A program made the translations under genes and the position numbers. A stretch of DNA of 64,000 nt from Membranipora membranacea (Eukaryota > Bryozoa > Gymnolaemata > Cheilostomatida > Membraniporidae): NCBI GenBank assembly GCA_914767715.1, contig OU612071.1:2854001-2918000 (forward strand). The letters are read 5' to 3'. Below, piece after piece: positions 1,976 through 36,289 of the stretch (position 1 is its first letter; every line of letters starts with the position of its first letter). The notes below the pieces were generated by a model that was given only the letters and a program-made list of their open reading frames with translations, was not told where the DNA came from and searched no databases.

Positions 1976-2127
1976 AACATAGTCAAGGGATTTTCAGTTT
2001 TGTGCATTATATACTTATATTCCAAACAATAGACTAAGTGTTCTTATTACTTATCTATCAAATTGTCGGGAAATTCTTCCTCGTCAGGACAGCCAGCATG
2101 GGCTTGGCTTAAATATTCCCGTTGAGT

Positions 2128-2200
2128 AAGGTAATTGTTATCTCTAAAAAAACCAAAGCCGAGGGGAAAGCACCGATGAAGGGCAAAGAAATTATTGTCA
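2128..2200 (+). repeat. Decayed outlying copy of the AT-hook gene 3' end
   Basis: This stretch reads GGTAATTGTTATCTCTAAAA followed by a diverged copy of the segment up to GGGGAAAGCACCGATGAAGG. It matches positions 128-185 of the AT-hook gene more extensively than the tandem copies do, because it keeps about 35 extra bases upstream. The reading frame is broken. It marks the right side of the amplified region. Confidence 0.6.
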
Positions 2201-2230
2201 CAGTTCATTTTCATTTTGAAACCATAGTCA

Positions 2231-2706: not shown

Positions 2707-3219
2707 CAACTTACTATCTAACGCTAACAGAGAAACTAACAGAGAAACGGGATGCAATTTGATTAGTACAGTGGACAAATAATATGCACACATTTGGTTT
2801 AGTTGGCTACATAAAGTGTCAAGAGTGTAAGGTTGCTAAAAATAGTTACAGTCGGAACATTTATAATTGTAATAATAAATTATTATTGTAACCTGTTATG
2901 ACAGACAAAACATATTGAGGGAATTGAATGTCAGAATAGAATGTAATGTCCAGTAATATTGCATAATATCACAGTAAAAACCAAGCTGGAGCAGCATAAG
3001 TGGCTAAAGGACATACATTGGCACAATAACATTTGTATTAACCATCGGTATTCATGCCTAGCACTTTCAGTTGGCAAAGTAATAAAGTCTTTGAATTGAA
3101 ATTAGATATAATGCTATCTACATGTATAGAAAAATTAAGGTGGTTTACAATATGAGCTCCTTAAAACTTGACTAAACAGATGGTACAATATTTAATTTTA
3201 ATATTAATTTAAAAGATTT
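2707..3219. other. Intergenic, no gene recognised
   Basis: AT-rich sequence between the 161-bp repeats and the stop of the minus-strand P2X7-domain gene. No convincing exon, tRNA or transposon end was seen. It should contain the 3' UTR of that gene. Confidence 0.5.
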
Positions 3220-4945: not shown

Positions 4946-5384
4946 AATAAAGCAAGGAGTAAATTAAATGTTCTATGGAATGTGTGACTCGTTTTGTTGG
5001 ATTCTTGTCGATGAATGACTTTTAATTTTAATGTCAAATGATAAGTGAATAAATTGCGGGTTGAGGTATTCTCATCCTCACCAATCTTGTTTACAATCAA
5101 TGAGGAAATAGAGCTATAATTCACACACTTTGATTGGCTACTCCTGAGATGCTGGAAAAAAACTTTGCTCGCTAATTCCCTCATAGTATGTCATCACAAT
5201 ATGATCACGTGACGTGATCGGCCATGTTGCAAATGTTACATAATTCCAAGGGGGTTACACCCACTTTTTTCCAGAGATGACAACTCTTGTAAATCAGTGT
5301 TTACACCTGCTGTATCTTGCTCACATGGGATATCAAGTCAAGAAACATAATCCTAACATAATTAACCTACCCTCAAACTAAGTC
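4946..5384. other. Intergenic between the P2X7-domain gene and the peptide array
   Basis: This stretch should hold the promoter of the minus-strand P2X7-domain gene, but no clear TATA box was seen. A half-copy of the CAAGGAGTAA motif lies at 4953-4962. Homology to the array units begins near 5385 with TTTAAGAAAACCAATATCAA. Confidence 0.4.
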
Positions 5385-12204: not shown

Positions 12205-14201
12205 CTAAAACCGTTACAACAAAATGCATTCTTCCGGATATAATGCAGTCTCTAATAAAATATTCATTGATTTATGGATTTGTTTCGAAGTGTTTTATTG
12301 TTTTGTATTATCAAGACAGGCATTAATAAAAGTTGTTATCTTCAAAATAACAACCAAATAAAAGAAAAAGACACTAGTTTATACAAATTGTTGCTCACAG
12401 AAAAATGAGTTCTTTAATAATCAAACTTTGCGCAAACTCCAAAAAGCTACTAGGGACTGAGCTCGATGTCAAATGAAAAATTGTGAGAATGTGTATTGGA
12501 AAATACAACTCCCTGATTGGAGAATGATCAGTTAACTATTCATTCATCTTTTTGTGCAAAAAACTCCAAATCTGACAAAAAATCTGCAAGTTCGTGTTTT
12601 TCTGTTTGGGAAGAATTACATTTCGACATGGTAACTCACAGAGATCTGGTTTTTCTTGGAGCATCAGTTTATCACATTATCCAAGTGAGCTTTTGAGGGC
12701 ATGTCTGAAATATTTTTTAAACATATTTACAATTGCGATTTACTTTTTCATTACGGTGTTTATTCCATCCATCAGTGCAGTGGCAATGTTGCACAAGGCA
12801 GCGCAAAGAGCCTATATATTTGTTGTTTCTATGCCATTGTGCGCAGTTTCAAACAAATTCTAATTGCCTTTTATCAAAGGAGTGGAGCAATTTACAAATG
12901 ACAATGGAGATGCTATACTGAACTTAAACAAAAGAATATTCCTGTTGGTTGATATAAGCTTTCAGTATAGATTGTGGTAACCCATCAGTCCCCCATCAAA
13001 TTCTTTCATAATGACTATAGACCGCAAAATAATTAATATTATTAATATTTCGAAACATGGTTTGGATTTGGCTTTTTCAGTGGATACTGTTCAATGATAG
13101 CATTTTCAAACTACACCCAAATGTTTGAGAATAATTTTACTTGAATGTCATCCCAATATTTTTATTATTGAAAAACACTAATGTAACTATGCTGGATGCG
13201 TATAGGATTATGATAACTGTGTGTCTGGAGGGTTCACCCTTAATAACACACATGATATTCTATGTGAAATATTCTGCTGCATTTTCACTGAGCTGGTTTC
13301 TGTATGTTCGACCTTGGTGTATTTATCACCATTAAGGAATTGCAGTCCTGAAATAACCATTGACAGCATTCATGTTACGGTTGAGCTTGTACATTTTCTT
13401 AAAACTCGTGCCCTGGGACTGCATCTATACTGCAACAAGTTATAATGTTGTTACTTTTGAGGATTAGGTCAGCCAAACAGGTGGGCTACCTCAAAAAACA
13501 ACAACTCTGAGATGGCCTCCAAACAAAATTGGAAGCAATTCTTCATGCAGTGCATTAAAACGATCCAAGTACAATTGAGACCTCTGCTGGATGAAGATAT
13601 CAGTTAGAGCAATTACAGACATTGTTTTCTCAGAGTAAATTTTCTAATCCCTCAAGAAAATCTTATTTATAAACAACCAGTGTATTGCAGTCTCTGTGTT
13701 TCATTACAGGGAAATAATTTGTTACTGTTGTGCCTTGTTAATCTTCTCCAAAGGATTTAAAGGCAATGTAATTTTAGAATATCTAAACCTGAGGATTACC
13801 TTTGTGTCTCAAGACTTGTCGCTTCTTATGATATTTATGTATTATAGCATTATTACATCAGATTAAAATTGAAGGATCAATTAAATCAGATGTCTAGTCG
13901 CAAGCAACATCCTGGACCACAGGATGCAAGATTTGTTGCCTTAGTGGCCAGGCCGCAATATCTGCTCCAGGTTGCTCTCTGTTTGCAGGCAGGTCGGAGC
14001 ACACCTGGGTTCCAACCAAAGCCCAGTGCTAGATAATTTGTAATTCCTGTTCAGTCCAAATATACTTTCCAACAACCATTCCAAGCCCGAAACCCCAGTT
14101 CTGATACAAAAAATTAAGCCCATATTGAGTGCCCCGTTTTTTATACCAATTTTATTGCATCCAAAATATTATATCATATTATCTAGAATCAATAGGCTCT
14201 A

Positions 14202-14223
14202 CCCAGCAAACACAAAATGTTAT
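14202..14223 (+). repeat. Left terminal inverted repeat of the large element
   Basis: CCCAGCAAACACAAAATGTT begins the element. A further AAAAT match and a shared CCTCGTGATAA block (left about 14,262) show weaker similarity to the opposite end. Confidence 0.75.
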
Positions 14224-14437
14224 GAAAATCTTCTGATAACATTATCATAACAGTAGTGGTCCTCGTGATAACGTCGTGCCACGACATCAAAATAGCAAAA
14301 TGTGTAGACACAATTTTATTGCCGTGATAATAGTTTCGAACGATGTTTTACAAAATGTTTTCATAACAGTTTCACGATAAAATTTTTTATCATTGAAACC
14401 CAGTATCGTGGTGATTCCCTGAGCGCATTTTGCCCGA

Positions 14438-14592
14438 TATTTGAAGAAACCATCTACATAATGTCTTTATAACAATCCAATCCTTCATCGTCGAACTCTA
14501 CTAAAAGCACGTTTTTGCCCGATATTTGGAGAAACCATTTATATAACGTCATCATGACAATCCAATTCGTCAATGCTGAACTCCATTAAAAT
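14438..14592. repeat. Left subterminal direct repeat, two copies of about 76 bp
   Basis: TTTTGCCCGATATTTG begins both copies (about 14,438 and 14,514), followed by GAGAAACCAT, ACAATCCAAT and a TCGAACTC/TGAACTCC block. Confidence 0.6.
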
Positions 14593-14887
14593 TTCCAAAT
14601 TTAAATGACTTGACGATTTGCACGGCACAGCAATGACAGTAAGACAACAGCCATTGCTTCAGCACTACAACTTTCAAAGCTCTGTTTACCTCACAAGTCT
14701 ATCAAATCCTCATATTCGTCATTTGATTAGCAAAGAGTGTAGTGATGTTCCAAGTTGTTTTATTCATTGCAAAATAATGTTCAATGATGATTATATACGT
14801 GTAATCAACAATTTTGTTTATCAAAAGTAAAAAATGAACATTAATGGTGGAGAAAAATAAAATTGGTTAGATATCTATTTTTTTACT

Positions 14888-17800
14888 TTATTGGCTATCT
14901 ATGCTGCAGTCATCGCTGTCCCCATTCAGAGTAAGCTCTGTGATTTTCTAAAAGAAGAGAATAACAACACATTCTTATTACAGTTGTTTTCCTACAATGC
15001 ATTTGGTTCAACTCCACCGATACAATGCTTCTTTCAAGACTCCTTTGTATTTTAAGGAGTTGTCCGCTCTTGTACAGAGGTCTGAGCTCAAAGCTCAAAA
15101 TAGTTATGTGATTCGTTGGATTGAATGGTAACAGAGTCAGATAGTAAACTCAAAGTAGGGCTCCTAAAATAAAAATTTATCATTCATTGAGCATCGGCTT
15201 AGCAATGACCTTTGTTATTTGCTCGCTACTTTTAGTTCTAACAAGCTGCATACATATTTGTAACTTGTTTAGAGAAACTAGGCTAAGACTTACTTGAAAG
15301 ACCTTACACAATCATAATTCTTTCGATTAAACTTGACTACCTGGAGCTTGAACTGCAATTAACCTAAAAGTGCCAGTCTGTGTGCAATTCATTGTACTGA
15401 GCCAGATAGTATGTCTTGACAAGCTTTGTCGGCGCCCCCTCCCCACCCAACAAAGGTTGTCATGACAGGCCATTTGCCACTCAACTTACATTGTTTTTCC
15501 AACACTAAAGTTGATGCCGTCCTTCTGATTAGGTGCGGCTCTACAGAGATCCCCCATCTTCTCTATCACCGCAGTGTCATTGTATCCCAGTGCCCTCACA
15601 GCTCCTTTGAAAGATAAACATATCAATTACTAGAAGGCAGCGCAGGCAGTGCAGGCAGTCAAACAAAACTGGGGTAAAACATAGTGAACATAAGAACTTA
15701 AACAAAGCCCAATATACAGATAAGGCACTTGAGGTTTGACCATTGAAATGTTTATTGGCAATGTTGTTCTCGTTTGGTCTGCAGTCCAGGTTTTATTTAC
15801 TACTTGATCAACTTCAATTGGGTTTTGAGTTTGAAAATTGCATGAGATTGAGCAGCGTTTCACAATCACGTTCGAGTTGTTATTTGTTAAAGAAATCATT
15901 TACCCTATAGGAGTTTAATTTCGCTATCTGGACCTGGAACTAAATTTCGGTAGTAGGCTTACTAGTGAAAATTTAAAAAAAATGTCCTAGCTGGGATTCA
16001 AACCCAGGGCATAATACTCCATATGATTGCAAGGCAGACACTTAGACCACTACACCACGCTAGCTTGCATGCTAGGGAAGGTGTATTCCTGTATAATTGT
16101 ACATTGTTTATGCAACTATGGTGAGTGAGTTTAATTTAAGATACACTAAATTTCGCAACCTAGGAATCAACCGAAATGCGAATCCTAAATGCCGCGAAAA
16201 CTAAACTCCTATAGAGTAGATTAAAATTAATATCAGTTGATCTCGAAAAGCTCAAACTCAAAGCATGATTGATGATAACGCCGTTGCCACTACACATCCC
16301 AATGGTGTAATGGCACCCTAGAATAAATGCATCACTGCTAGTACTCCATTTAATGTCCTGTCTAGATTTATCATAAAATTTTTGAAGTATAGTGAGAACC
16401 ACTACCCCTGCCTGCTCATAAATATCATGTGCTTCTACCCTTAATAACTCACAGAGTAAATAATGAATAACAATTGTCTATGTTGCCCATCACATGAGGG
16501 TTCATACTAAATGCCTTACACAAGTAGATGTCTTCCAAAACCTCATGGGCAGATAACTTCCGCTAATAATTCTGAAAGCACTCATTGAATCAACAAAGGT
16601 GTGTAAATTACGCTTAAGGCAGCATTTTTGTCATCAAAGCCTTTACTTACTTCCTATCGTCTTGAAGACTCTTGTGCCTGCAAGGCACTGTTTTGTCTTT
16701 GTGCCCTGCAGCGTGAAATGCTGCCAAACATGGTTTGAAGCCACTCTCCTCATTGTGGTGAAACCAGCCTCGGTGAGGCTCCTTCCTCCGATAGTCTCAC
16801 AGAATTTTTGCTGCAAGAATAAATTTCATGAAAACTGAAAAAAACACAACATTTTTATAATGGCATATCTGTATATGTGTCATGAAAGTTAAAAAGTCTG
16901 TTTTTTCCGTCCAGGCCCCCATGTAGCCGATCTGCCGATATGGTTGACATTCTGTAATTCGCCTTCTCTTTGCCGTTATGGTTAATAAGAGCAAACTAAT
17001 TCGAGCACAGTCATGATTCATATCAGATGTAGATCATGTGCTGCAGAAATGATTCTTCCCTTGACCCCTAAACTCCAGGCCAAATCTAGCCACCCTTTTA
17101 CATATCCACCTATTTTTGCAGCATGTTTGCTACCCAAAATTTTTGATATTGCAAATTAAAATACTGATTAACCACTGGTCTACTTACAAACTGCTGATAC
17201 TTGGTATCATCCTCTTTGAGTTGCTCGTTGAAAAGCATGAGCTCCTCTGGAGATTCCAGAGGGCTCTCAAACATGTCGAGTATGTTTTTCTCGACTGCAG
17301 AGCAACTGCCACTCTCTCCTCTCTCAAGGTGTCTGATTATCTTGCTGACCTTCATATCAAGGTTTGTCAGCAACCCTATAGAAGAAATATGAAAATCCAT
17401 TCAACCAATTATTCACAAAGTTATTTCCAGCGATACAACCAAAGGCAAAGTCTTTTGTTTCGCAAAGAATATATTGGGGTACTTTGTCCTGTATTTGAGG
17501 GAAGACTGTGGATGAATTACTTTCCCTGATTGTGTTGGTGTTGGCAGTAAGTGACAGCCTAATAATTGACAAACAGATAAAAAAATGTATGATTTAGATT
17601 GAAATGGTCGCTGCCATCCAGGGAGTATTAATCTATTTATCAACATTCAAATAACTCACTTTCAATTTTCTGATTTGAAGTTTCCCCCAACTCCACACAC
17701 GATTGTGAATATCCATCTACAATAAAAACTTGGAATTAAAATATCATAGTATTCCATTCAATGATAAAAGTTCCTTATCAAGGTTCAACAGTTCAATCAG

Positions 17801-20800
17801 GAGCTGTCCACCATTTTTCACAGAGGGGGACAACTCATAAGATATTTATGTATTTCGTTACTAATAGGGTTGTGTTGTTATAGTATACCATTGTTGAGCT
17901 GAAAAAGTGACCAATGCGCTTAAATCTAGTTACATAACAAAGGTAGCGAGGTGGTCCACAGTTTTGATAGGAACAGATGATAAATATCCGTCTAGCAAAC
18001 TTGACTGAGCTATTGTACACCGGAAATTACCGTATCGATTCGGATCAAGTTGGTCCCATTTATCATCAGCAACAAAATTGATTACTCTGCAGTGACCTCG
18101 GCCAATCTATTGGTTGGAATTTATTCAAATATTTGACCAAATTATGTGAATAGGATTTCAGATGATAAGTTTTCAAAAATCTTAAGCTTATCTGTATTCT
18201 TTTTGAAATTGTCCTGCTATAGGTTCAATCCAACTTCATCTTACTGCAATGAACATGTTTTAAAGAGTGCACTGATGTATTGAACCACCTATGCATGTTT
18301 CTGAGGCATTCCAATTAAGTGTTAGAAGCGGAAGCAGATCTCAGCTCCGGTCCAAAGTTGTCTGGCTATTATCTGTTCCAATATTATTCTCTCATTTGAG
18401 CAATACTGTTCAAGTCTCAGAAAAAGCTGGATACTGTATCTTTGTTGCAATGAGCCTGATTTTTGTACAGAGACTAAAAGGAGAAAGGGATACTTACGCG
18501 TACTAGCCGATGGTTCTGGACTCATAATTCTGGGCTTTTTTCTTTCGGAGTTGAAATGAGATCTTCATCTAAAAACAAAGAATTTTTTTGCTAGCAATCG
18601 ATAAATTGTTAGGTACTTATTCTGAAGTCGTATTTTCACTCTCTCTACACTTAACAACAAAACAAAGTGGCTGCTTTTAATGTAACTATGGGTTATCAAT
18701 GAACCGAAATGGATCCATGATATTCATCTTTGGCAGAAACCATCTAAATATTGAACCCATGGTGGACGTTAACTGTCAACGGATGTTAGTTGATATTGAA
18801 GATACCAAGAGAGAAATAGATGTTTAGCACTTCTGGTGTATTTCAATTATTGTTCACAGATGGTCGGAGTTGTCAACCCCTTTCCCGTGACATCGCAACT
18901 CCAAGGCAATGTCAAAAATGGACTTGGCTGATAATAATGATCCCTTCCTGCGACTACAACAACGCCGATTGGGCTAGTTTATTGTGTTGCAAAAATCAGA
19001 GATATCGAATCATTGAACATATATATTGGGAAGAGGCTGCCTCGAGTAACATTATGGGTTATTAAATCAATTCTGAGTCAAGTGCATCTGGTGGGGCCCG
19101 CTATAATGATTCTTCAATAATCGGTCTTTAAGTTGGTAATGCATTTTATCTCATGAATCAATCTTGAGTTATAACTCACCATGAGAGGTCTTTAGATCAA
19201 ATGACGGTAGTGGTATAGCCATACTACTGCCATCATGTGTACTATTGTCATCATTTGTACCATTCCTCTCTTCTCCATCACCATCATCTTTAAAAAATTA
19301 CAACTGAATTCTCAGTCAAATGATTGCACCGGGCACAAAATTGTTTATTATATGGACCACAACAAACCACAGATCATATTTAACGTATTGCCGTATCGCC
19401 GGCAAGGGGTTTGAGTGCAACAAATCGATAATGGTGCTCAATATGGGATACATTTTAATATATATCACAGTATAAAGGAAACGCTGACTAGCAGCAAGAC
19501 CTAGACCAGCCATAACGTGTATAGTAATGATCAACTCACACCAAATATCAAAACACCGATACCGGTACTGCAAATCGTGCATACACATCATGACAGTAAC
19601 CACTCCTTACTGCTATCAGTTCCCAACCAAAGATTTAGTGGTCCTTTTCGCTACATAACCAACCGACACAACCAACCGCAACTGCATGCCCTAAATTAAA
19701 TGTGAAAATAAAAGAATGTTGCATACACTTACTAGGGTCCTTCTGAATTCGCTGGGGAGATGACAGAGTTTGTTTCCTCAAGCTTTGTTCACCAGCTTCT
19801 GTATCTACATAAACACAGTATTTTCAAACCAAAACATCAATGTTAACCTGTTTGTGGTATGAAATCATTAGTTCAGTCTGCGCTTGTTTACCAGAAATAA
19901 ATTGCCTCGCCAATAGTTTATATTGACAACATCCAACAACCCAAATACTTGTAAGAATTCCTAGAATAAATATCCTTGACTCTTTTTACAAGGGAAATCT
20001 TAAGCAGCACCATTTTAAATGTAGCAGTACAGCGACCTGTGAAGCATCGAGATCAAACAGGACTAAATATATACATATACAGTGCTGTTCCCCGAGTTTT
20101 CAATGGTCGAAAGCGCAGACACTTGATTTGAATGTCAGGCCATGTGAATATTTCTTTGAATGATTGACAATTTTTTTAAAAATTACCCCATTCTGATTCC
20201 TGGTTGTTGAGGATAGAAAATTTTGATGTCTCAGCAACACAGAAGAAGCAGTTGAAGAATTTTGGATGAGATTTTACCTTAATCCTTAGTGTAAATATTG
20301 ATGCTTAGTGATAGTAATTAATTCAGACATAGGAAAGGACAGCCTTTAAACCGAACCATTACCTCCAACCTAACAGCAACCACATTGCTGGGGACATCAG
20401 TTATATTTATTTATATTTTTATGTAAATTTTAACTAACCAGTAGTGATATCATCCTTCTTTCTTGCTTGCGACTCATACACCTTGGCCTTTTCGTGTTCC
20501 TCTGGAAAGAAAATGCGTAACATTTTAGTGAGAGGGATGCTGGCATATGTTTGCAACACGATCTTGCTTAATACTGCAAACTTTTGTAGATTGAACTTAA
20601 GTTTGGCTCTATTGTGCATGCGGTGGTCATGTTATGTGTGCAGCGCTCAAATACATATGAATTGACTGAGGTTGCAACTCCGAGTTCTATCCTGTTACTG
20701 AGGAGATATGTATCAGCTGTGCTTTTTTTTTGAAAATCTCTCATTTTAGAAATTGGTTTTTGAGCTATAATCTCCGCTATAACCACCCTCGAAGATTAAA

Positions 20801-21501
20801 AGATTCCACAGCCGATAATACCAAGTGAATGGGATATCCCACAAGAATTTATCAGCGTAATATAGTACTTTTCTAGAGTGTGATGCAATCATGATAAATT
20901 ATTGAAACCAATGCCGTAGACAATGTTAGCTTTGTCTCATTACCTGTAAGCTGCAATATCTTCGCGTCATACAACGTCCAATTGCCAATATCTGGAAATG
21001 CATGCTCCTTCCTGAGGCTTTTTGCGTTTGTGGTGGGTGGTGGCCAATAGCATTTCTGGAAAAAATAATCAGAGCTGCTGTTACACTAGTCAATAAGAAA
21101 GGAATCCAAGATAACATTTGGAATATCCACAGATCAGTAAGGCATATGCACTTGCGAGGCTTTGTCTTGTCAATCCATGTTGGCGCTGCTAAACACCAAT
21201 GTATACCAAAAATCAGTATTTGGGGCATTTCAACCATATGGCACTCTTTTCAAATGAACCAACTTGATAAATCTTAAAAAATAGATTTGAAATCATTAAA
21301 ATAAAACTGCATATTTGAATATTGGAAATTTAAAAAAAAAGTGTTTCACTAAGAAAATTTATGACTCACCACAACTGAGTGTTTTAGCTTGTCCTTTTCC
21401 TTTAATAAAGTTGACTTTTTGATCCAATTACTGCTAACAATGCTTACTTCCTCTCTTCCAAGGGAGCTGACGATGTAATACAATGGTGCTTTTGGAGCCA
21501 T
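14888..21501 (-). CDS. DUF4806-domain protein gene, 12 exons, about 416 aa, one apparent frameshift
   Basis: Minus-strand exons: 21501-21370, 21055-20944, 20501-20439, 19804-19733, 19287-19180, 18568-18498, 17716-17660, 17375-17188, 16810-16651, 15604-15490, 15093-14982, 14947-14888. All junctions agree in phase except that exon 6 needs one more A in its A6 run. Exon 1 starts at ATG with LYYIVSSLGREEVSIVSSNW and exon 2 gives KCYWPPP, the usual N-terminal module of DUF4806 proteins. Exons 3-7 encode a polar linker. Exons 8-9 encode the DUF4806 domain (about residues 236-340): FESPLESPEELMLFNEQL, ETIGGRSL, RRVASNHVWQHFTLQGTKTK. Exon 10 continues plausibly with AVRALGYNDTAVIEKM. The last exon ends DDCSIDSQ, and an AATAAA signal (14,892-14,887) overlaps the stop. 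DUF4806 has no known function. The gene lies wholly inside the inverted-repeat element. Confidence 0.75.
15984..16066 (-). repeat. tRNA-like sequence, probably a tRNA-derived SINE or tRNA relic
   Basis: On the minus strand there is an A-box-like TGGTGTAGTGGTCTAAGTG and a B-box GGTTTGAATCC flanked by a perfect 5-bp T-arm stem (CTGGG/CCCAG). The acceptor ends are only partly complementary (CTAG/CTAG) and the spacing between the boxes is long. It sits in the intron before exon 10 of the DUF4806 gene. A functional tRNA is unlikely. Confidence 0.5.
16543..16571 (-). CDS. Possible alternative last coding exon of the DUF4806 gene
   Basis: After exon 9 (donor GTAAGT at 16,650, phase 1), the acceptor GCTTTCAG at 16,572 opens an in-phase segment KLLAEVICP and stop. 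It would give a shorter isoform of about 330 residues that ends right after the DUF4806 domain. No AATAAA was seen downstream, and the exon at 15,604 gives a better continuation of the family, so this is the weaker of the two 3' ends. Confidence 0.35.
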
Positions 21502-23380
21502 TTTGCTGTACTAGTTTGAGCTACTGATGTTGTTTTCAGATTAGATTTCAATTGAATGAGGTATCCTATGATGGCACAAGTGGTTGATGCCAGCAGGGAG
21601 AATGCCAGCTACAATTATTCGGCTGGCTGTGCTTTACAAGTCTCAAGGGTGCTTATCAATAGTGGTCAATTATAAAATGTTTTGACCACATATTGTAACA
21701 ACACAATTCTTGAAATAAGCTCTATTTCACACAACCCTGTAAATATTTCATGTGGGTGTATGAAACTGTTGTCTGTGTTCATCATGAATAGAAAGTCGGC
21801 ACATGAAGATGTTGTCTCTTTGTGTACCTTAGTACAACAAGAAGCCCAAACGAGTTTTGGTGGCTCCAACCATGTGTGCATAGGAATGATATGGGGTAGA
21901 ATTGCTATAACTGCATGAGATTATCAATAGGCTAATTGTGTCAGACACAGATCATAAATATTTAATTGATTAAAATATATATTTAGCACAAAATTTAAAT
22001 AAGATAGGGAGACTGGGTAAATTAGACAGAAAGATGACTCGTATACTCATTTCCCTGCAAACGTTTAAAAGTCGAATATAAAACTTTCCGAAATAACCAG
22101 GTAACAAGTGTCAAATTAATGGCCAAATTATTCACTCAAAAGATCAAAGCTTGTTTGGAGATGTACTATTTAATTAGTATTATGCTATTGCTTGGAAATC
22201 ATGCTTTGACATGCTTGGACATGCAAGTAGTTAGGTACTGCCTATAATCTGGCAAACATCGAAAAAGCGGAACCAAATCACAGAAAAAGACTGTGTGTTG
22301 ATTACCTGACACCATGACACCAAGTGCCCGCGATTGGGTAAAACATCTGAACAATCGGAAAATACTGTAAAATTTTAGCAAGATGTTTTATGCTAGGGTT
22401 AGATGCATGATGTCACAGGATGCCAGAGGATTGACACTGAGCTAGGTCAATGTGATCCATATGTGCTATTTATAAATTTTGCTATTTATAGATAACATCA
22501 TAGGTCCTGATATCATAAGGTATTTGTTGTGGTCTACACAATGATCATTTGTGTAGTGCCTCTGTATTATGCAGTTAGCATAATTGCAGTTAGCAGTTGC
22601 AGTAAGCATAATTAATCATCAGTGCACTGCAGTGCTAATTCATGTCATAAGGTCTATACTAGTATCAAGTCTCAACCTTTTCCTGTTTCTTTACAAACAA
22701 AGAAATAGTTTTCTTTGGCACTCCACAGATTATTAAAATTATTAAAAATTTTAGTTGACACCCTAGCCTCATTTAATCGTCCTGGGTCAATATAAAATGC
22801 ATGGATGAAGATTTGTCGAGCTTAAATTAGACTAGGAACTGGTAACAGTTAAAAATAAATTATTGAGCAGTAGAATGTGGCGAAAACTAGGAGAACCCCC
22901 CCCCCCCTGTACGTACAGATTTATGTGGCCTAAAAACCTTGTTCATAGACCCCTGGTCAATTTTGGGCTTACTGCTTATTTTGCAGTCACTATTATCTGT
23001 CCTTTTATTGAACTGTTGAAATTGTTTACATCATAATAATTTTGAAACGTGTGGCTGCTGAATCAATCAGTTTCTGGTTTTAGGGAATGTTGGATGAGCC
23101 AATTACTTAGCCTATGGAAATTGAATAATGCGAGATATTATCATGCATAGTCTGTAAGCTAGTTAATCTTGCACCTAAGTGTATGACTCTGACTTATTCA
23201 ATAGAAAGTGCATTCTACAACTATTCTGTCTAAACAGACAGAGGAATTGTACACTATTTCCACAGTCCCTGAGTTCATAAAAAGGACAACATAGTCGAAG
23301 ATTAACCTCCCGCAGTGACAGTTGCCAGATCATGTCAAATGCAAACTTAGAAAAAATTATTACTACAGTCAACAGCATTA
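21502..23380. other. Inside the large element, no gene recognised
   Basis: This stretch is upstream of the DUF4806 start codon and should contain its promoter. Short open frames occur on both strands at 21.67-21.92 kb but lack splice or family support. A run of 12 C lies at 22,896-22,907. Confidence 0.4.
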
Positions 23381-23438
23381 TGATCACATCACAGAGTAAG
23401 GATATATATATATATATATCCTTACTCTGTGATCACAT
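23381..23438. repeat. 46-bp perfect palindrome flanked by 9-bp direct repeats
   Basis: The palindrome 23,388-23,433 has arms starting ATCACAGAGTAAGGATATAT and an alternating AT centre. TGATCACAT occurs directly on both sides (23,381-23,389 and 23,430-23,438), as expected of a target duplication around a minute inserted hairpin. Confidence 0.6.
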
Positions 23439-23761
23439 GCAGGTAGCATACCTGACAAGTCTCCCTTTTTGGTAGGGAGGCTCCCAGTTTTTAGGGGTAA
23501 TTCCCATCCCCTCCCTATCTCCCTTTCTCCTCCCTTTTTCAGCTTCCTTTACTCAGAAAGTTTTTGAAGCTACCCTTTGCAAGAGTTACTGTGTTCTCCT
23601 ACCATCACAGTACACATACCTATGTATTTGCTTATTAACATTACGTATTGTAAGTGGCTATTCAATATTCGAGCCTTACCTACTAGTGTTGTTAAAGCTG
23701 CTCCTCCCAAGTTGGTTAAATCAAGACAATTTCATCCACATATTGAGGTAAAATTATGCAA

Positions 23762-24073
23762 TTAATAAAATTTACAGTCAAGTTTTGGCTTGGAAATATT
23801 ATACACTAGGCCTAAATTGCATCCACACTCTTGGACGCAGAGTGGTAGTCCGGGTTTATAGTTCGTCCTTGGAGACCTCCTGTCCCTGATTTCTGGGTCT
23901 GCCAACTTGTCATGTATGACAGGTAGTCTTACACCATACCTGCATGTGAATGATCGATCATTATCAAGGCAAAGGAATTTCATGATGTTTATCACTTTGA
24001 TCTTATGACTGCCATCACACTTTTCAGCCAGATGAAACCTAGCCAGTAATGGTTTGATAATCTGACCTTGAGG
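23762..24073 (-). other. Unrecognised open frame, about 103 codons
   Basis: The minus-strand frame is open from just after a TAA at 24,074-24,076 to the stop at 23,762-23,764. It includes KIKVINIMKFLCLDNDRSF, then CRYGVRLPVIHDKLADPEI and a Cys pair near the end. Its composition is protein-like, but there is no strong start or recognised family. It could be an exon of an unseen gene, a relic of a former transposase gene, or chance. Confidence 0.2.
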
Positions 24074-25508
24074 TTACATAATACTCAGCCTAATTATATT
24101 CACTCATGTTACCTCTTAATTAAAATATAAGGGCCATGTCCTAGTATACTAGACCAAGTTTGGTCCATTTGCCTGCATTCTGAGTCGCTCCTGATCAACT
24201 GGTTACGCCGCAAAGTTACATAATATAGGCCTATTTCATGTAAATGACAATACTAGATGATGTATGTTTATTTACATTGACAATTTTATAACTGTATGAA
24301 TGGACAGTCAATCATCAACTATATTCAACAGTGGGATCAAAAGCTTAGCAGTGAATTGTATTAGCCCAGTGTTATAATCACAATAATCAGAGGGTGTCAA
24401 CAAACCGTCCCTTATTTAGCACAGATTGAACTGAGGCCAAATTAACACAGAATTTATTAGCCCATACTCATCTGTGATTTTCTCTTGTTCAAAGTCAGCT
24501 AAGCTCCGTAGTTTTTTCACAATAAAATTCAGCTGTGTCTGCTCAAGCTAATTTAATTGATCTCCCTCAGAAAAAACACATCGTTGATATACAGGCGGCC
24601 GATTAAGGTGCTGTCATTTGGAATACTTATGTCATGCTTTAGGTTATTAGGTATGATACCAGGCAGAATTATTCCTGATCTAATTGACAAGCACCTTGAT
24701 TGTATGATAAGATAGATTACAACAAAAAACAACCGACAGGCAGCCCTTAATGGCGCTCGGGATGGCGATCGTGGCTGTAGGTTCCATACTATTTAGGTTG
24801 ACTGCTTTATTCTTTTAGTAATCTGCTTGTGAATTTTCACCTGAGACACTCCTACAAAACCCAGTCAATGCAATGCAAAGGCCCAAAATTGCTCTCTAGG
24901 CTTTGGGGCCGGGGCTATGCGCCGAACCCCGTTGGGTGGGCTTCCAGCGCCCCCTAACCCCTCACCTGGGTTTACTTAGGCACTTTGGTAAAAGATGGCA
25001 GGGTCACAATCAAAAGGGAGAAATCCACCCTGTAAATCATTCTCTTAGGAATCATTTCTGTAGTATGTATCGCTAGAATTTCAATTTCTGATTTTTAAAT
25101 GTGAGCTTTTTACCTTCAGCGCAGACAGCCACGTATAAATGTGATACCAAAATAACTAATTTGTTGTCTAGATTGCCGAATTGTAATGGAGGCGGAAGTT
25201 TTAGGGATACACTTGTAATACATTGTGAACTGATAAATTGCTTGATTGATTGATGGTATTTATCCTCAAACACTTCGCCAGCAAAGTTCTTTTGTTGGAC
25301 TTACCCTTGATTAATTAATTTCTATGTAAGTGTGAGGAGCAAACCCTATCAATCATTATGCATGTCTCAAAGTTGAATTGTCGTTTGCTGAGATTTCAAA
25401 GTGGACATGTAAATGTGATAATTTTTGTACTAAATGTACTTTATAATTCGTTTAAATTTTAGGAAGACTGAATACCAGATTTTAACTTCAAACCATGACT
25501 ATGTAGTG
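24074..25508. other. Inside the large element, no gene recognised; GC-rich patch at about 24,897-24,960
   Basis: Mostly AT-rich. A sharply GC-rich stretch (GGGGCCGGGGCTATGCGCC, then GGGTGGGCTTCCAGCGCCCC) stands out and may be a fragment of another repeat family. No exon was identified. Confidence 0.35.
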
Positions 25509-26098
25509 CAAGGGTGTCCTAATTGGGGCCCATGGGCCAAATGTGGCCCACAACTAGCAAATTTAAGTGGCTCAATTGCCATCGTGACACTCTACAAACG
25601 GCGATAATTCATGCGGGGCGCAAATGTCCTGATAACTCATACCATGCAACATGGTCTGTTTTCTGAAAAAACTTACATGGATTGGCCTACAACTGAATAG
25701 AGAACAGAACTAGAGAACATCAGTCTGCAAGAAAAGGACACCAAAAAAATTCCCACTTGTTGAATTAGTTCTCTACATCAAAAATAATTACAATACGCCC
25801 CTGAATGGTTGTGATTCTCCCGTTTTTATAAGCCGCCCTCTTATTCGCTTATTTGCTAATTTTCCAAATGGAATCAGTTTTGAAAAATCCTCAACCAGGA
25901 ATTGTGATTATTTGGATTAGTCAGTTCACTAGCCCCAAAAATTATTTCCTCATGCAATGTTCAAAATTATGAAGCAAAATATTTGTTATGGGGCCTCCTA
26001 GCGACTATCAATAATCACCAAGCATAACTACTCTTGGCCCACGGACATTTTCTAAACTGCGAATATGACCCATGGTAGGACAAGTTTGGGCACCTATG
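25509..26098. mobile_element. Non-autonomous hAT-type element, 590 bp, 8-bp target duplication
   Basis: The left end is CAAGGGTGTCCTAATT, followed by GGGGCCCATGGGCC. The right end, reverse-complemented, is CATAGGTGCCCAAACTTG. These resemble the well-known hAT ends CAGGGGTGTCCAAACT. ATGTAGTG is duplicated exactly on both sides (25,501-25,508 and 26,099-26,106), the 8-bp duplication typical of hAT insertions. There is no transposase frame inside. It is nested in the large TA-flanked element. Confidence 0.8.
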
Positions 26099-26106
26099 AT
26101 GTAGTG

Positions 26107-27634
26107 ATCACTATTGTTTATTGTTGGTTTGCCTGCAAACTATTTCTACCCTGACTGCCTTCAAGTCAAATCTAGCCATAGTGGTCAATCAGGATTAACG
26201 ATCCGGTTGTGCCCTTCTCAGAGTTTTCTCCTCACAATAGATCAAGAAAAGCTTCGAGCATCGCTTTTTTGATATATAATTTCCACTTATTCAGACAACA
26301 CCAGGCCCTAAAAGTAGTTCAATAGTGCCCAATGAGCAATCCCTCAGGTGATGAACAATTATTGCATGGTGTGGAATCCTTGAACCTTAGGAATTTATTC
26401 GAACAATGTATAAATGTGATTTTTTATGCAAGTTGGAGCAACTCTTTGTTAAGTGTGTGCATAAAATTGTTTACACTAGTTTTACTCCTAATTCAAGGAT
26501 TTCTATTCTACAGTTATTTATGTTGAAGCAAGCAAAGCAATTTATTAAATATAGGGCAGTTGCTGTGCCCACGTATGGCTGATTGTCTTTGTGACATCAG
26601 ATTTTAAACCTTGAAACAGAAATAGAGGTAGTTCTCAAACTTGATACGCTGCTGTGCACATTCCTGCATAGTCAACAAAAAGTCATATTGTATGATTCCT
26701 ATCTTCCAATTTAAAGCAGCTAATATTATTGTACATGATCTTCCTACATGAAGTTAAAATTCCGATGGCATGTGGTCCAACCAGTTTGCGTACGGAATTG
26801 TAGCATTTGTGTATAATTCCTGGGTTATGCTTAGATGATAAACGTAATGCAGTCCCAATGACATTATGGTGCATGAGAGAACAACTCCCAATTCATCATC
26901 GGATGTTCATTTTGCATAAGCCCATGTGACACGCATAAAATGATGGTTAGAAATGTCAATTTTTCAGAACAAATTAGAACTGGTATGGTGGTTATTATTC
27001 GCACTGCTTGTGGACATATGGTAGACGGTGAACATGATATGAACTCGCAACACAAACATAAAACCTCGTTAAACTCAGCTGCGTGCCTTGCAGCAAAATA
27101 CAGCCAATCGTCAATCGTCAAAGCCCAGCATGATGGGCCGCAGCATGACTATCAACCTTTCCAACCTTTCAAGTTGTTCAATCCTGTAAACCACACTCAA
27201 CCGGACGTTGACCCAAGCCTCATTAGCCTAAAATCCTCCCACAACTAAATATGCTATTCAAATGGTGGAAACCACTTATTCACTCACAAGTTGCAGTCAG
27301 AATAAATGTTTCTAAACAGATAAAATGAAAGATAATAAAATATACTATCTGTAATATCTATTGATAAAATTTTGCAAAGCTCTGAGACACAGTAATCATA
27401 TAATTACTGATGATTATTCATTGATATTGTTTTGATCAGGTTACAAAATGATTTTGAGAGAACAATTTTACACCTGTTTTGCCATGATGTTATTGCTGGA
27501 TAAGCTTCAAGAAGTTGTAGTGATGTCATTCCACGAAGTCATTCAGAACATTAACAGAGTGTCATGAAAGCATTTTTGTCAAATTGCCATATAGTCAATT
27601 CCACTAGATGTTACAGTAACAGTCGGTGCACCTT
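26107..27634. other. Inside the large element, no gene recognised
   Basis: Several short open frames occur (26.33-26.53 kb plus, 26.86-27.25 kb both strands) but none has a recognised motif or matching splice sites. Confidence 0.35.
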
Positions 27635-27872
27635 GTTACAACAAGGACATGGCATATCAATCATGCTGGATATTATATCGGAGTTATCATAGCATTTTGG
27701 AAAACTTCTCGTTAGAACGTTATGTCACAACAGGTGGATAATGTTACACAAAATTGTTAAAACAAAGACATTGGATATCAATATTGCTAGATATTATATT
27801 GGAGTTATGGGAACATTTTGGATAGCTTGTCGTTAGAGCGTTATGTCAAAACTTGCTGATAATGTTACAACA
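27635..27872. repeat. Right subterminal direct repeat, two copies of about 121 bp
   Basis: Copies start near GTTACAACAAGGACAT (27,635) and GTTAAAACAAAGACAT (27,756). Both contain GATATTATAT, GGAGTTAT, CATTTTGGA, CGTTAGA and CGTTATGTCA in the same order. This mirrors the presence of direct repeats near the left end. Confidence 0.65.
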
Positions 27873-28052
27873 AATAATTTTGTGAGGTGATGGGAATAAC
27901 ATTTTGAGGCGATGTTTTAAACACAATAATATGATATCTCCAATGAGCTGCGTTTCTGCCAGTCAACCCGATATCATACAACAATATCAGGGAGTATGCT
28001 CTTGAATGCAATGACCCGATCACAACATTATCACGAGGTACAAAACATTTTA

Positions 28053-28074
28053 AAAACATTTTGCGTTTGCTGGG
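28053..28074 (-). repeat. Right terminal inverted repeat of the large element
   Basis: It ends ..ACATTTTGCGTTTGCTGGG, the reverse complement of the left terminus with one difference in 20 bases. TA follows at 28,075. Confidence 0.75.
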
Positions 28075-29821
28075 TAGTGGCTGGCTACTCATATAATTAC
28101 ATTTTTGCAATCGACCATGACACCTTGTCGACATTCAATTATCCACACTCTCTTTACTCAACAAAAACATGGTCCATGCTTCTAAACAGTTATACAAGGT
28201 TGCGATCACTTCACTTTTGGGTAGCCGGGTAAACCTTCTTCCGGGAGTTATTGCACAATCAAGTAGAGGGTGCCCTGGGACTGCATCTATACTGCAACAA
28301 GTTATAATGTTGTTACTTTTGAGGATTCGGTTAGCCAAACAGGTGGGCTGCCTCAATAAACAACAAATCTGAGATGGCCTCCAAAAAAATCTGAAGAATT
28401 TCTCCACGCGGTGCATTGAAACGATCCAAGTACAATTGAGACCTCTGCTGGATGAAGATATCAGTTAGAGCAATTACAGACATTGTTTTCTCAGAGTAAA
28501 TTTTCTAATCCCTCAAGAAAATCTTATTTGTAAACAACCAGTTGTATTGCAGTCTCTGTGTTTTATTACAGGGAAAGAATTTGTTAATGTTGTGCCTTGT
28601 TTATCTTTTCCAAATGATTTAAAGGCAATGTTACATTAGAATATTAAAACCTGAGGATAACCTTTGTGTCTCAAGACTGATTAAAATTGAAGGTTGATTT
28701 AAATCAGATGTCTTGTCACAAGCCACATCCCGGAGCATAGGCGGCGAAATTCGTTGCCTTAGTGGCCAGGCCACAATATCTGCGCCAGGTTGCTTTCTGT
28801 TTGCTCAAATTGACTTTAATGAACTGAGAAGGTGATAGGTTGTATCCATATCCATTATTGACTTAGAGTCAGTTTTTACTTCTTAAGTGATGTTAGGGGA
28901 ATATCTTCTTTTCTTTCATATAATTTTTTAATTTTTGGTTGTAAACTGAAACAGGATAGTTTTCTGCCAGGTTTACCTGGAATTCTCCAATCACTGGGCC
29001 CAGGTCGGAACCATTTCCCCCTCGTGATTTAATTGTGGACAACGTTTTAACCAGGTTGTTGGCGGGGGTGGAGTTGGGTTTTTTATGCTTCTCGGCACTG
29101 CGCACTTGGGAATTTTTGTTGAACGGTGATTTCCTCTAGGGTTACCCTTTCTAAATAGATTAAGTAGTTCCTAGCCTGTGATGAGACAGTGACACCTATG
29201 GTGTTGTAACATTGCCATCAGAGGAAATTGTTCGATTTATACAATTAAATTCTTGAGCATTTAAACACGGCTTGTAAGATTTGCTTAAGTACCTAGCATT
29301 GTTCTCCAGCGAAGCTGTGTATAGGATTATATCTTTGATCAGGTGATACAGCAGTACTTTTAATTGTTTTGGTTGTTCTAAATTATTTGGAGCAGATTTC
29401 ATAAGTTTAATAATTAACAAAGGTTCACAACTTGAGTTTCAGTGTGTTATCCTTATTATGAAAGTATCGATAACAATTTGTCTACATAGCAGTTTGAAAA
29501 GATCTGTACAATGAAACAGAGTTACACAGTGATTTAGCGAACAGAAATATATCACATATTCTAAGCAAGACTAAATTATAGTCATAACTCCTTGGTTGAA
29601 GCTGGAAACAGTAACCAGTCGCAGCATTAGAAGGCAGTGTTGTTGAGTTCAACAAGTTTTATTCTTTTTTCTCAATTAAGCAACATGTCAATCTTTTACA
29701 ACAACACATGTTGTATTACACTCTCCGAACCCTCCATTATCTGTTTTAGTTACTGGGTGCAAGCGGACGTGGATGGTATAGCTGCCACCACAATAAGGAT
29801 ATCATAATCACTAAGCTTCAA
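28075..29821 (+). repeat. Array unit 2, right part
   Basis: Unit sequence resumes exactly where it stopped at 14,201 (GTGGCTGGCTACTCATAT against GAGGCTGGCTACTCATAT in unit 3). It has a deletion of about 0.65-0.8 kb at about 28,800, where TGCTTTCTGTTTGC is fused to CAAATTGACTTTAATG. The same deletion occurs in unit 6 at about 51,795. No gene was recognised. Confidence 0.85.
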
Positions 29822-30915: not shown

Positions 30916-33900
30916 ACACCCACCAGCGGACCAAATTGAGGTGAGCAGATACAATAAGACTACAATCTTTGTATTATAGATATTGCACATATATGTACTG
31001 ATAAGAAAACAAATTATAATGAAAATTCTAAAATAATTTTATTGGTTGATGCAACTCTGAATATTTGTTATTTAATGTTGTCGTAAACAAATCAGTTTTA
31101 TGCATATAAATCAAATTAATTTATTTTTTCCAAAACATTCTAGGTTCGAGATATGTCTGCAACCAAGAGAAAATAACACAGGATTTATAAGCTCTTGTCA
31201 ATCAACTGTGTATTGAATCTAATTTAATCAATAAATAATATTTAGCAATAAAGCAAAACCTCCTTGCACACAGTTTAATAATTATATTTCAAACACAAAT
31301 AACAACTCCTAAATTATTATGGCATTCAGTTTGGTTATGTCATACCCATAAGATAGAGAGCGAAACCTCCTATGCCATTCTACACCATTAAAGGGAACTG
31401 AAATTGATTGTTCAAGCCAGAACAGTGACAGGACTCACAACATCTGCACGTGCTTACATTGTAAAATCTAAAGTTACTTAAGGGTACCAGAAAGGTACAA
31501 TTTCATACATGGTATACATTGAACTCAATCCTGGAACAGCAGCTCACTCATAGCCTTATAAACAATAATCACTCGATTTAGGAATACTTACTTGATTTTA
31601 TGAACTCCTCAATCCTCTAATAATTTAAGTTTATAGATGTCTATGTGATTTGCTATGTGAAATGCTATGTGAAATGCTATGTGATTGGCTGTCCCTAGTA
31701 GAGGGTGCCATCTTTACTGTATGACCACGTGACAGTCACCTGACTAAAACCGTTACAACAAGATGCATTCTTCCGGATATAATGCAGTCTCTAATAAAAT
31801 ATTCATTGATTTATGGATTTGTTTCATAGTGTTTTAATGTTTTATATTATCAAGACAGGCATGAATAAAAGTTTTTATGTTCAAAATAACCACCAAATAA
31901 AAGAAAAAGACACTAGTTTATACAAATTGTTGCTCACAGAAAATTGATTTTTTTATTAATCACACTTTGCGCAAACTCCAAAAGGCTACTAGGAACTGAG
32001 CTCGATGTCAAATGAAAAATTGTGAGAATGTCTATTGGAAAATACAGCTCCCTGATTGGAAAATGGTGAGTTGAAAATGCTATTCTAAGAATAGTACAAT
32101 TCAATGATGGTATATTATAGTGACGTAGAGGGTATCTGCATGGTACATGTCATCTTCATGAGGCTCAGTTATTTAAAGTCAAAAATGCTCAGTTGTAGTT
32201 ATCTCCTCCTTACTTTTCAAAAAGCTATCTCCTTCCTACATTTTTTAATTCAGAATAACCACATTTGGTCACCTGGATCGTTAGTCAATCAGCTAACTAT
32301 TCAGTCATCTTTTTCTGCAAAAAACTCCAAATCTGACAAAAAATCTCCAAGTTCGTGTTTTTCTGTTCGGGAAGAATTAAATTTCGACATGGTAACTCAC
32401 AACGATCTGGTTTTTTTTGGAGCATCTGTTTATCACATTATCCATGTGAGCTTTTGAGGGCATCTTTGAAATATTTTTTAAACATAATTAAAATTGCGAT
32501 TTACTTTTTCATTATGGTGTTTATTTCATCCATCAGTGCAGTGGCAATGTTGCACAAGGCAGTGAAAAGAGCCTATATATTTGTTGATTCTATGCCATTG
32601 TGCACAGTTTCAAACAAATTCTAATTGCCTTTTATCAAAGGAGTGGAGCAATTTACAAATGACAATGGAGATGCTAAACTGAACTTAAACAAAAGAATAT
32701 TTCTGTTGGTTGATATAACCTTTCAGTATAGATTGTGGTGACCCATCAGTCCCCCATCAAATTCTTTCATAATGACTATAGACCGCAAAATAATTAATAT
32801 TATTAATATTTCCAAACATGGTTTGGATTTGGCTTTTTCAGTTGATACTGTTCAATGATAGCATTTTCAAACTACACCCGAATGTTTGAGCTTATATTTT
32901 ACTTGAATGTCATCCTAATATTTTTATTATTGAAAAACACTAATGTAACTATGCTGGATGCGTATATGATTATGATAACTGTGTGTCTGGAGGGATCACC
33001 CTTAATAACACACATGATATTCTATGTGAAATATTCTGCTGCATTTTCAGTGAGCTGGTTTTTGTATGTTCGACCTTGGTGTAGTTATCACCATTAAGGA
33101 ATTGCAGTCCTGAAATAACCATCGACAGCATTCATGTTACGGTTGAGTTTGTACATTTTCTTAAAAATCGTGCCCTGGGACTGCATCTATACTGCAACAA
33201 GTTATAATGTTGTTACTTTTGAGGATTCGGTCAGCCAAACAGGTGGGCTACCTCAAAAAACAACAAATCTGAGATGGCCTCCAAACAAAATTGGAAGCAA
33301 TTCTTCACGCAGTGCATTGAAACGATCCAAGTACAATTGAGACCTCTGCTGGATGAAGATATCAGTGAGAGCAATTACAGACATTGTTTTCTCAGAGTAA
33401 ATTTTCTAATCCCTCAAGAAAGTCTTATTTGTAAACAACCAGTGTATTGCAGTCTCTATGTTTCATTCCAGGGAAAGAATTTGTTACTGTTGTGCCTTGT
33501 TAATCTTTTCCAAAGGATTTAAAGGCAAGGTAATTTTAGAATATCTAAACCTGAGGATTACCTTTGTGTCTCAAGACTTGTTGCTTCTCATGATATTTAT
33601 GTATTATAGCATTATTACATCAGATTAAAACTGAAGGTTCAATTAAATCAGATGTCTAGTCGCAAGCAACATCCCGGACCATAGGATGCAAAATTTGTTG
33701 CCTTAGTGGCCAGGCCGCAATATCTGCTCCAGGTTGCTCTCTGTTTGCAGGCGGGTCGGAGCACACCTGGGTTCCAACCAAAGCCCAGTGCTAGATAATT
33801 TGTAATTCCTGCTCAGTCCAAATATACTTTCCAACCAGCATTCCAAGCCCGAAACCCCAGTTCTGATACAAAAAATTTAGCCCATATTGAGTGCCCCGTT

Positions 33901-36289
33901 TTTTATACCAATTTTATTGCATATAAAATATCATATCATATTATGTTGAATCAATAGGCTCTAGAGGCTGGCTACTCATATATTTACATTTTTGCAATCG
34001 ACCATGACACCTTGTCGACATTCAATTATCCACACTCTCTTTACTCAACAAAAACATGGTCCATGCGATCACTTCACTTTTGGTTAGCCGGGTAAACCTT
34101 CTTCCGGGAGTTATTGCACAATCGAGTAGAGGGTGCCCTGGGACTGCATCTATACTGCAACACGTTATAATGTTGTTCCTTATGAGGATTCGGTTAGCCA
34201 AACAGGTGGGCTGCCTCCATAAACAACAAATCTGAGATGGCCTCCAAAAAAGTCTGAAGCAATTCTCCACGCGGTGCATTGAAACGATCCAAGTACAATT
34301 GAGACCTAAGCTGGATGAAGATATCAGTTAGAGCAATTACAGACATTGTTTTCTCAGAGTAAATTTTCTAATTCCTCAAGAAAATCTTATTTGTAAACAA
34401 CCAGTTGTATTGCAGTCTCTGTGTTTCATTACAGGGAAAGAATTTGTTACTGTTGTGCCTTGTTTATCTTTTCCAAATGATTTAAAGGCAATGTAATATT
34501 AGAATATCAAAACCTGAGGATAACCTATGTGTCTCAAGAATGATTAAAATTGAAGGTTGATTTAAATCAGATGTCTTGTCACAAGCCACATCCCGGAGCA
34601 TAGGCGGCGAAATTCGTTGCCTTAGTGGCCAGGCCACAATATCTGCGCCAGGTTGCTCTCTGTTTGCACGCAGGTCGGAGGACACCTGGGCGCCAACCAA
34701 TGCCCAGTAGAAGATGGACCGCAGATACATTCGATATGAGGCCCTTTCGATAAATTTAAGGTTCAATGATTGCACAGACCAAGGGTACATTGTGGCAGCA
34801 TCATTCAAGGATTGTTATAATTATTCCTATTGTAAAAACTGCCACAATACTGCCTTCCTAGCTATACCCATCGTATCAATTTAGCTAGGATAGTTAGGTG
34901 TAATTTAAGCGTATAACTTCATGTCTAATTGTGGAGTAAGGCTGTACAAAGAGAAATTTTTAAGGGAGAGCCTGCATATTCTCTTTTTTATTGTAATCAA
35001 AAACTTTGAATTCAGTTCATTCTCCAGAACCCTATAATTGTGACAAATAGATGAAAGGAGTTTTTGGCATCAAGCTTCCCATAACTTTCCCCATGACGCA
35101 AAGCTTGCAGATACCTTGACCAAGGAGTAAAAAACTCGGGACCATTTCCCGCTTGTGATTTAATTGTGGACAACGTTTTAACCAGGTTGTTGGTGGGGGT
35201 GGAGTTGGGTTTTGTATGCTTCTCGGCACTGCGCACTTGGGAACTCTTGTTGAACGGTGATTTCCTCTAGGGTGACCCTTTCTAAATAGATAACATAGTT
35301 CCTAGCCTGTGATGAGACAGTGACACCTGTGGTGTTGTAACATTGCCATCAGAGAAAATTGTTCGATTTAGACAATTTAATTCTTGAGCATTTAAACACG
35401 GCTTGTAAGATTTTGCTTAAGTACCTAGCATTGTTCTCCAGCGAAGCTGTGTATAGGATTATCTCATTGATCAGGTGATACAGCAGTACTTTTAATTGTT
35501 TTGGTTGTTCTAAATTATTTGGAGCAGATTTCATAAGTTTAATAATTAACAAAGGTTCACAACTTGAGTTTCAGTGTGTTATCCTTATTATGAAAGTATC
35601 GATAACAATTTGTTTACATAGCAGTTTGAAAAGATCCGTACAATGAAACAGAGTTACACAGTGATTTAGCGAACAGAAATATATCACATATTCTAAGCAA
35701 GACTAAATTATAGTCATAACTCCTTGGTTGAAGCTGGAAACAGTAACCAGTCGCAGCATTAGAAGGCAGTGTTGTTGAGTTCAACAAGTTTTATTCTTTT
35801 TTCTCAATTAAGCAACATGTCAATCTTTTACAACAACACATGTTGTATTACACTCTCCGAACCCTCCATTATCTGTTTTAGTTACTGGGTGCAAGCGGAC
35901 GTGGATGGTATAGCTGCCACCACAATAAGGATATCATAATCACTAAGCTTCAACTTAAGAAAACCAATATCAATCATCATTAAATTATGTCAGTTGTCGA
36001 TGTCATTAAACCAAGTAGTGTATTTTTTCCCTAATCACACAAAACTTAATATCAATTATTTGACATCTGGCAGTTTGAAATTATCCACATAATATGACAA
36101 GTGTCCAAAACTTTTATTGGCATTATAATTGATCCAACAACTATTAGTATGTAGGCGTATTAAGTTCAGATCCTGCACCCTACCTCCTGGGAACAATGAT
36201 ATTTCCCTATCAACCATAATTTATATGGAAATAAACAATATGAAAATAATAACAGCTTCCAGCTCATCAGATGTTGCCTGTCCTGAAAG

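Follow-up and report, generated by a model that had tools for sequence, protein, structure and literature searches.

The window analysed here is a 64,000-nucleotide stretch of the genome of the bryozoan Membranipora membranacea (GenBank assembly GCA_914767715.1, contig OU612071.1, positions 2,854,001 to 2,918,000 of the forward strand). It contains an array of repeated units, one of which is interrupted by an insert of 13,873 bp. The insert has exact boundaries at window positions 14202 and 28074 and a TA dinucleotide on both sides. Its left end starts with CCCAGCAAACACAAAATGTT, the reverse complement of its right end, read from 28074, starts with CCCAGCAAACGCAAAATGTT, and the first 20 bp of the two are identical at 19 positions. 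The terminal inverted match extends to 34 bp, and a second block of inverted match (18 bp, 89%) is found about 60 bp inward of the ends, whereas past about 77 bp the left and right ends are dissimilar to each other. These discrete ends, together with the duplicated TA, bear out the original prediction that a large inverted-repeat element is present at this site. The features of the locus are as follows (ORF, open reading frame):

14200..14201, no strand: left copy of the 2-bp target duplication (TA), read from the sequence
14202..14235, plus strand: left terminal inverted repeat, 34 bp, 85% identical to the right one (19/20 over the first 20 bp)
14202..14591, plus strand: CpG-rich left end, closing with two tandem units of 79-85 bp (14428-14591)
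14592..27632, no strand: interior of ~13 kb, CpG-poor, without a long ORF or a signal of selection on ORFs
17188..17375, minus strand: stretch resembling an exon, bordered by AG and GTAAGT, whose weak match to DUF4806 falls below the Pfam cut-off
27633..27874, plus strand: two 121-bp tandem units (81%) adjoining the right end
28041..28074, minus strand: right terminal inverted repeat
28075..28076, no strand: right copy of the 2-bp target duplication (TA), read from the sequence
32964..34667, plus strand: empty site in another array unit, from the alignment of joined flanks; likewise 39091-40794 and 45222-46949

The array also offers the insertion site in its uninterrupted form. We joined 1 kb of each flank of the insert and aligned the product to the other array units. 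The first 1,730 bases of the joined flanks aligned without a break to the three units listed above with an identity of 95.1-96.5%. As had been predicted, the array thus holds empty sites that lack the duplication, and these three units represent them for the window copy only. The array probably predates the insertion because its units differ by 3.5-5%, which is more than the 0.25-2.55% found in 45 pairwise comparisons of ten copies of the element.

These copies belong to a family that was revealed by searching the genome with the two 300-bp ends, as the earlier reading of the locus had proposed. In the assembly that contains the window (339 Mb in 18 contigs), the left 300 bp were found at 37 places with the end itself included, of which one is partial, and at three more distant ones (40 of 46 candidates scored), and the right 300 bp were found at 38 places (38 of 38 candidates scored). 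Genome-wide, the 20-bp end has 78 occurrences with at most one mismatch, compared to zero for the reversed control, and the positions of these 78 agree with those of the 37 left ends, the 38 right ends and three older loci described below. Pairing of opposed neighbouring ends resulted in 31 complete copies with lengths of 7.7-30.2 kb. The length of 23 of them is 13.0-15.1 kb, and the other eight measure 7.7, 10.3, 11.3, 11.6, 17.3, 17.5, 19.7 and 30.2 kb. This count excludes two pairs, one of 47 kb on C5 and one of 717 kb on C2. Unpaired ends are present at 12 sites, including the three older loci. Two pairs of copies with the same flanks are segmental duplicates (C7:6221409/7603413 and C7:6955004/7551893), and removal of the two duplicates leaves 29 distinct complete copies. 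The interiors of 11 of the 31 copies (the window copy included) were read whole, two were read in part (10 kb of a C1 copy and 10 kb of the 30-kb copy) and 18 were not read. A partial duplicate on C11 was also read.

The analysis of the junctions covered both sides of all 31 complete copies. The 2 bp on either side of the element are identical in 28 of them (TA in 15 copies, AT in four, AA, TT, CA and CG in two each, and TC in one), and without the segmental duplicates the flanks match in 26 of 29 copies, with TA in 14. Hence, the cut appears to be staggered by 2 bp, with a preference for TA that falls short of specificity. Other full-length copies with TA duplications, which the original prediction had suggested looking for, do exist, but 13 of the 28 matching duplications are other dinucleotides. 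The 78 to 0 ratio of end occurrences, combined with identical flanks in 28 of the 31 complete copies, excludes chance. Inverted termini, short duplications at many independent sites and an empty site, which define a class II (cut-and-paste) DNA transposon with terminal inverted repeats (TIRs), are all found here. In one copy (C5:15854171-15868581), the 2-bp duplication is mismatched and the left and right flanks resemble each other as direct repeats (about 90%), which would reflect either insertion into a repeat array or later recombination.

The nine other copies that were compared with the window copy have its interior in collinear form, apart from deletions, the largest of which removes ~6 kb in the copy C5b, and small inserts. 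A copy on C11 and a copy on C1 have two deletion breakpoints in common relative to the window copy (element positions 1832/3423 and 7169/7249), but their flanks and their duplications (TA and CG) are different, which means that a shortened form has been mobile. An AA duplication borders the 7.7-kb copy (C5:25999881). Two long copies were considered as the autonomous form of the element and rejected: the 19.7-kb C8 copy contains a nested long interspersed nuclear element (LINE), and the 30.2-kb C7 copy has foreign DNA with ORFs that look Polinton-like by eye in the 10 kb read. The LINE is ~4.6 kb long, lies near the left end inside C8:21422035-21441686 and has adjoining frames that resemble, by eye, an endonuclease and a reverse transcriptase. 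The insert nested in the 30-kb copy (C7:3037201-3047200) contains ATPase-like and zinc-finger-bearing frames, recognised by eye only. Nested inserts of these two kinds would point to an animal host.

The three older loci contain a relative of the element. Its end is almost identical to that of the family, and it is ~75% identical to blocks within element bases 65-5276. The three loci share flanks with one another and carry other DNA beyond, and no exact right end was found in the 10 kb read at them. Because their flanks are shared, they are probably a single old insertion that was duplicated afterwards.

We then analysed the interior for coding signals. In the ten copies, no stop-free frame longer than 160 amino acids lies wholly inside the element, and the longer frames sit in the flanks or enter from them. 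The ORFs of 70 amino acids or more that are shared among these copies have no excess of synonymous changes (4 synonymous versus 18 non-synonymous in the longest of them), and ORF lengths vary between copies. Mismatches to the older relative, which can be compared over parts of element bases 65-5276 only, display no three-base periodicity. The 47 ORF pieces searched in the window copy contained no recognisable Pfam transposase domain and, more specifically, no DDE/D transposase, which a non-autonomous member would lack. An Rfam search gave no match, and the DNA folding of the left 300 bp did not surpass expectation (z -1.56).

The best Pfam match in the window copy is to DUF4806, with an E-value of 0.0025 and 18.5 bits, which is below the cut-off of 25. 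It is located on the minus strand in the exon-like stretch between AG and GTAAGT, read from 17375 to 17188, and corresponds to the first third of the domain, ending at the donor site. The rest of the domain was not seen in the element in a rough motif scan, and a protein search with the stretch gave no match at E 10 or better. As presumed chance matches in the same ORF set reach E-values of 0.0092 and 0.0095, we do not count DUF4806 as demonstrated. A DUF4806 gene was considered as cargo and rejected, because the exon-like stretch stands alone, its E-value is near chance level and the remainder of the domain was not seen. The stretch may derive from a host-gene exon that the element captured. 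It is the sole trace of the spliced host-like gene that the original prediction had placed inside the element, so the description of the element as gene-carrying holds for one weak exon at most and not for a whole spliced gene.

The ends differ from the interior in composition and in variability. The observed/expected CpG ratio is 1.46 in the first 400 bp of the window copy (1.41-1.62 across the ten copies), compared to 0.36-0.56 in the larger interior blocks of the ten copies and 0.17-0.33 in the block just inside the right end. In the host part of the window, its mean is 0.45 and its maximum is 0.98 (124 measuring windows). With regard to CpG, the left end contrasts strongly with the interior and the right end only weakly. 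A comparison of nine copies, in which C5b was left out and columns with a gap in any row were dropped, found 28 variable columns out of 840 in the ends versus 523 out of 8,327 in the interior (p = 3e-4). The word CAAAATGT, which was picked afterwards as the most enriched one, occurs six times (both strands counted) in the 900 terminal bases and zero times inside; its occurrences could be candidate binding sites of a transposase. The CpG contrast and the lower variability of the ends fit short functional ends surrounding a passenger. We also observe that the left end (14202-14600) keeps its high CpG content amid CpG-poor host DNA, and such ends may be unmethylated or selected.

Taken together, these data make it quite probable that the insert belongs to a young, large (~14 kb) family of non-autonomous DNA transposons that resemble Pack-TIRs (described below) and are moved in trans. 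According to this explanation, the working parts of the element would be ~0.4-0.6 kb at each end, comprising the short inverted repeat and the subterminal repeats. A transposase encoded elsewhere would bind both ends, excise the element and paste it into a 2-bp staggered cut, preferably at TA but also at other dinucleotides, thus creating the 2-bp duplications. Supply of the enzyme in trans is suggested by the lack of a coding signal in the DNA read and by the mobility of the deletion forms. The copy number of elements that move in this way would rise when they transpose during replication or when the donor site is repaired from the sister. The ~13 kb of the interior would be passenger DNA in which no coding function was detected and which is depleted in CpG like the host. 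In the simplest case, it would be host DNA that was enclosed by the ends, like the internal part of a Pack-TIR; otherwise, it may be what remains of a very old element body. The CpG contrast argues for capture and the older relative for an old decayed body; we lean modestly towards the former and regard the latter as a serious contender.

Several observations weigh against this explanation. In three of the 31 copies (C5:15868581, C5:5925257 and C8:21441686), the duplication does not match. CpG enrichment is much lower at the right end (0.67-0.82 in the last 450 bp) than at the left one, and the copies were located by their left ends, which may by itself favour conserved ends. The blocks of the older relative indicate that the interior is old and may be a decayed element body. 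The partner that would supply the transposase was not found, as the ends with at most one mismatch belong to the element family and the three older loci only. The partner would therefore have to differ at two or more of the 20 end positions, be among the 18 complete copies with unread interiors, which include two of 17 kb, or be either lost or outside the assembly.

The unread interiors are also where an intact gene would have to reside if the insert were a large transposon that is autonomous and belongs to an undescribed superfamily, unless its transposase is split into many short exons and was not recognised. The clustering of copy lengths at 13.0-15.1 kb, a 2-bp duplication that is mostly but not strictly TA and fits no family tested, and the splice-like borders of the exon-like stretch are compatible with such an element, but the large autonomous relative put forward by the original prediction is not supported in the copies read, in which the frames are short and of differing lengths and show no sign of selection. 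The parts comparable with the older relative lack periodicity, and the ORF pieces of the window copy lack a transposase domain. We consider it improbable. A decayed autonomous ancestor appears less far-fetched, although still rather unlikely. In that case, the interior would be the rotted body of an old element that a surviving partner moves, and no host DNA would have been captured. The near-identical end of the older relative, in combination with its ~75% blocks, implies that the left end and the interior have been together for a long time. However, the part common with the older relative has no codon signal, the CpG contrast between the left end and the interior is sharp and nothing transposase-like was recognised.

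The original prediction had also allowed for a composite, in which two miniature elements moved the DNA between them. The ends do resemble those of miniature elements in their short inverted repeats and TA duplications. A composite should nevertheless have inner ends, and none was found in the window in inverted orientation with up to two mismatches to the 14-bp end; among the fetched loci of at least 3 kb, the single match with two mismatches falls outside the element. An 8-base piece of the end, TTGCTGGG, is present internally at 20385. Furthermore, the left and right ends are not copies of each other, the interior is common to the other copies fetched and all 78 end sites belong to the element family or its old relative. 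No opposed pair in the assembly is closer than 7.7 kb, and a miniature form with these ends is therefore not present in it. A composite is accordingly a very remote prospect. The copies that are segmental duplicates with the same flanks might suggest that no transposon is involved at all and that the insert either arose by segmental duplication or is ancestral single-copy DNA that a rearrangement interrupted. With 29 complete copies in distinct flanks, matching 2-bp duplications in 26 of them and an empty site in the array, we give practically no credence to this scenario.

The copies of the family are unevenly distributed in the genome. C7, which makes up 8.4% of the assembly, holds 14 of the 31 complete copies, or 12 of 29 without duplicates (p = 1.6e-6), and the excess persists when the window's own copy is disregarded (11 of 28, p = 8e-6). 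Local hopping or an unusual chromosome, either repeat-rich or sex, would explain this excess. The window itself has two further tandem arrays near its opposite ends, one of a 164-bp unit (about 10 copies, 362-1973) and one of a 348-bp unit (4.6 copies, 61055-62644).

The non-autonomous transposon we favour shares properties with several known systems. Miniature inverted-repeat elements, which are a few hundred bp long and have TA duplications, are similar to it in their short inverted ends, a 2-bp and mostly TA duplication and the lack of coding, but the element described here is 13,873 bp long, its shortest copy is 7.7 kb and no opposed pair of ends is closer. Tc1/mariner (IS630) elements duplicate strictly TA. 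The 2-bp duplication, with TA in 15 of 28 cases, is reminiscent of them, but AT, AA, TT, CA, CG and TC are also used here, and an assignment to a Tc1/mariner-like strict TA rule was therefore rejected. No transposase was seen. Polinton/Maverick elements, with their 6-bp duplication and polymerase and integrase genes, were rejected because the duplication here is 2 bp long and the window copy has no long ORFs. Members of the CMC group have subterminal repeats and CACTA-like ends. Our element also combines short duplications with subterminal repeats, but its ends (CCCAGC) are not CACTA-like and no transposase was seen in it. Duplications of 2-4 bp are reported for CMC (CACTA, Mirage, Chapaev) in the pertinent passages of Han et al. 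(PMC4482050). The same passages describe ISL2EU (PHIS) elements as having an AT duplication inside A|AT|T, ends that usually start with GG and autonomous forms of ~4.8 kb, most of them with two ORFs. The likeness to ISL2EU, as characterised there, extends to the 2-bp A/T-rich duplication; this family was rejected because the duplication here is AT in only four of 28 cases and mostly TA, the ends start with CCC and there are no ORFs.

The closest match is found in the Pack-TIRs. The relevant sections of Tan et al. 2021 (PMC8277862) report 370 of them in 100 animal genomes, with the internal part limited to 100-5,000 bp and a parental locus required; a 10-kb limit tried in humans added none. They list four multicopy cases in reference genomes (one example has three copies) and one fly family, Ssk-FB4. 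The present element is like a Pack-TIR in having TIRs around DNA that does not look like a transposon, in being multicopy with distinct duplications and in the absence of a transposase of its own in the sequences read. It is unlike one in its ~13-kb interior and its 31 complete copies. Non-transposon DNA between the ends, which characterises a Pack-TIR, is hinted at indirectly by the CpG contrast, but part of the interior is shared by the older relative. A limited literature search found no published family like this one, which does not deny that it may have been described before.

The spread of non-autonomous DNA transposons is commonly attributed to their small size. The element studied here seems unusual for its size, as its short mobile ends enclose ~13 kb of DNA that appears to be non-coding and resembles that of the host, with the enzyme seemingly made elsewhere. 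At ~14 kb, with no detected genes, it occupies ~29 sites with ten copies 0.25-2.55% apart, which means that length is no strict bar to spreading in this genome. More speculatively, and with considerable doubt on our part, it may be a wholly non-coding ~14-kb transposon that is currently or was very recently mobile in an animal-type genome, the largest multicopy Pack-TIR-like family known to us, and one whose transposase would belong to an undescribed or unusual superfamily. This reading also takes in the 29 distinct copies, mostly near full length, the mobile 7.7-kb form, a 2-bp rule matched by none of the families tested and the failure to see a partner with near-identical ends. The natural deletion forms and the empty sites of the array would permit direct tests of the end sequences that a transposase requires and of the size limit for movement in trans. 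Such elements can transport over 10 kb of passenger DNA within the genome, which is well beyond the 5-kb limit of the animal survey, as given in the sections cited above (PMC8277862).

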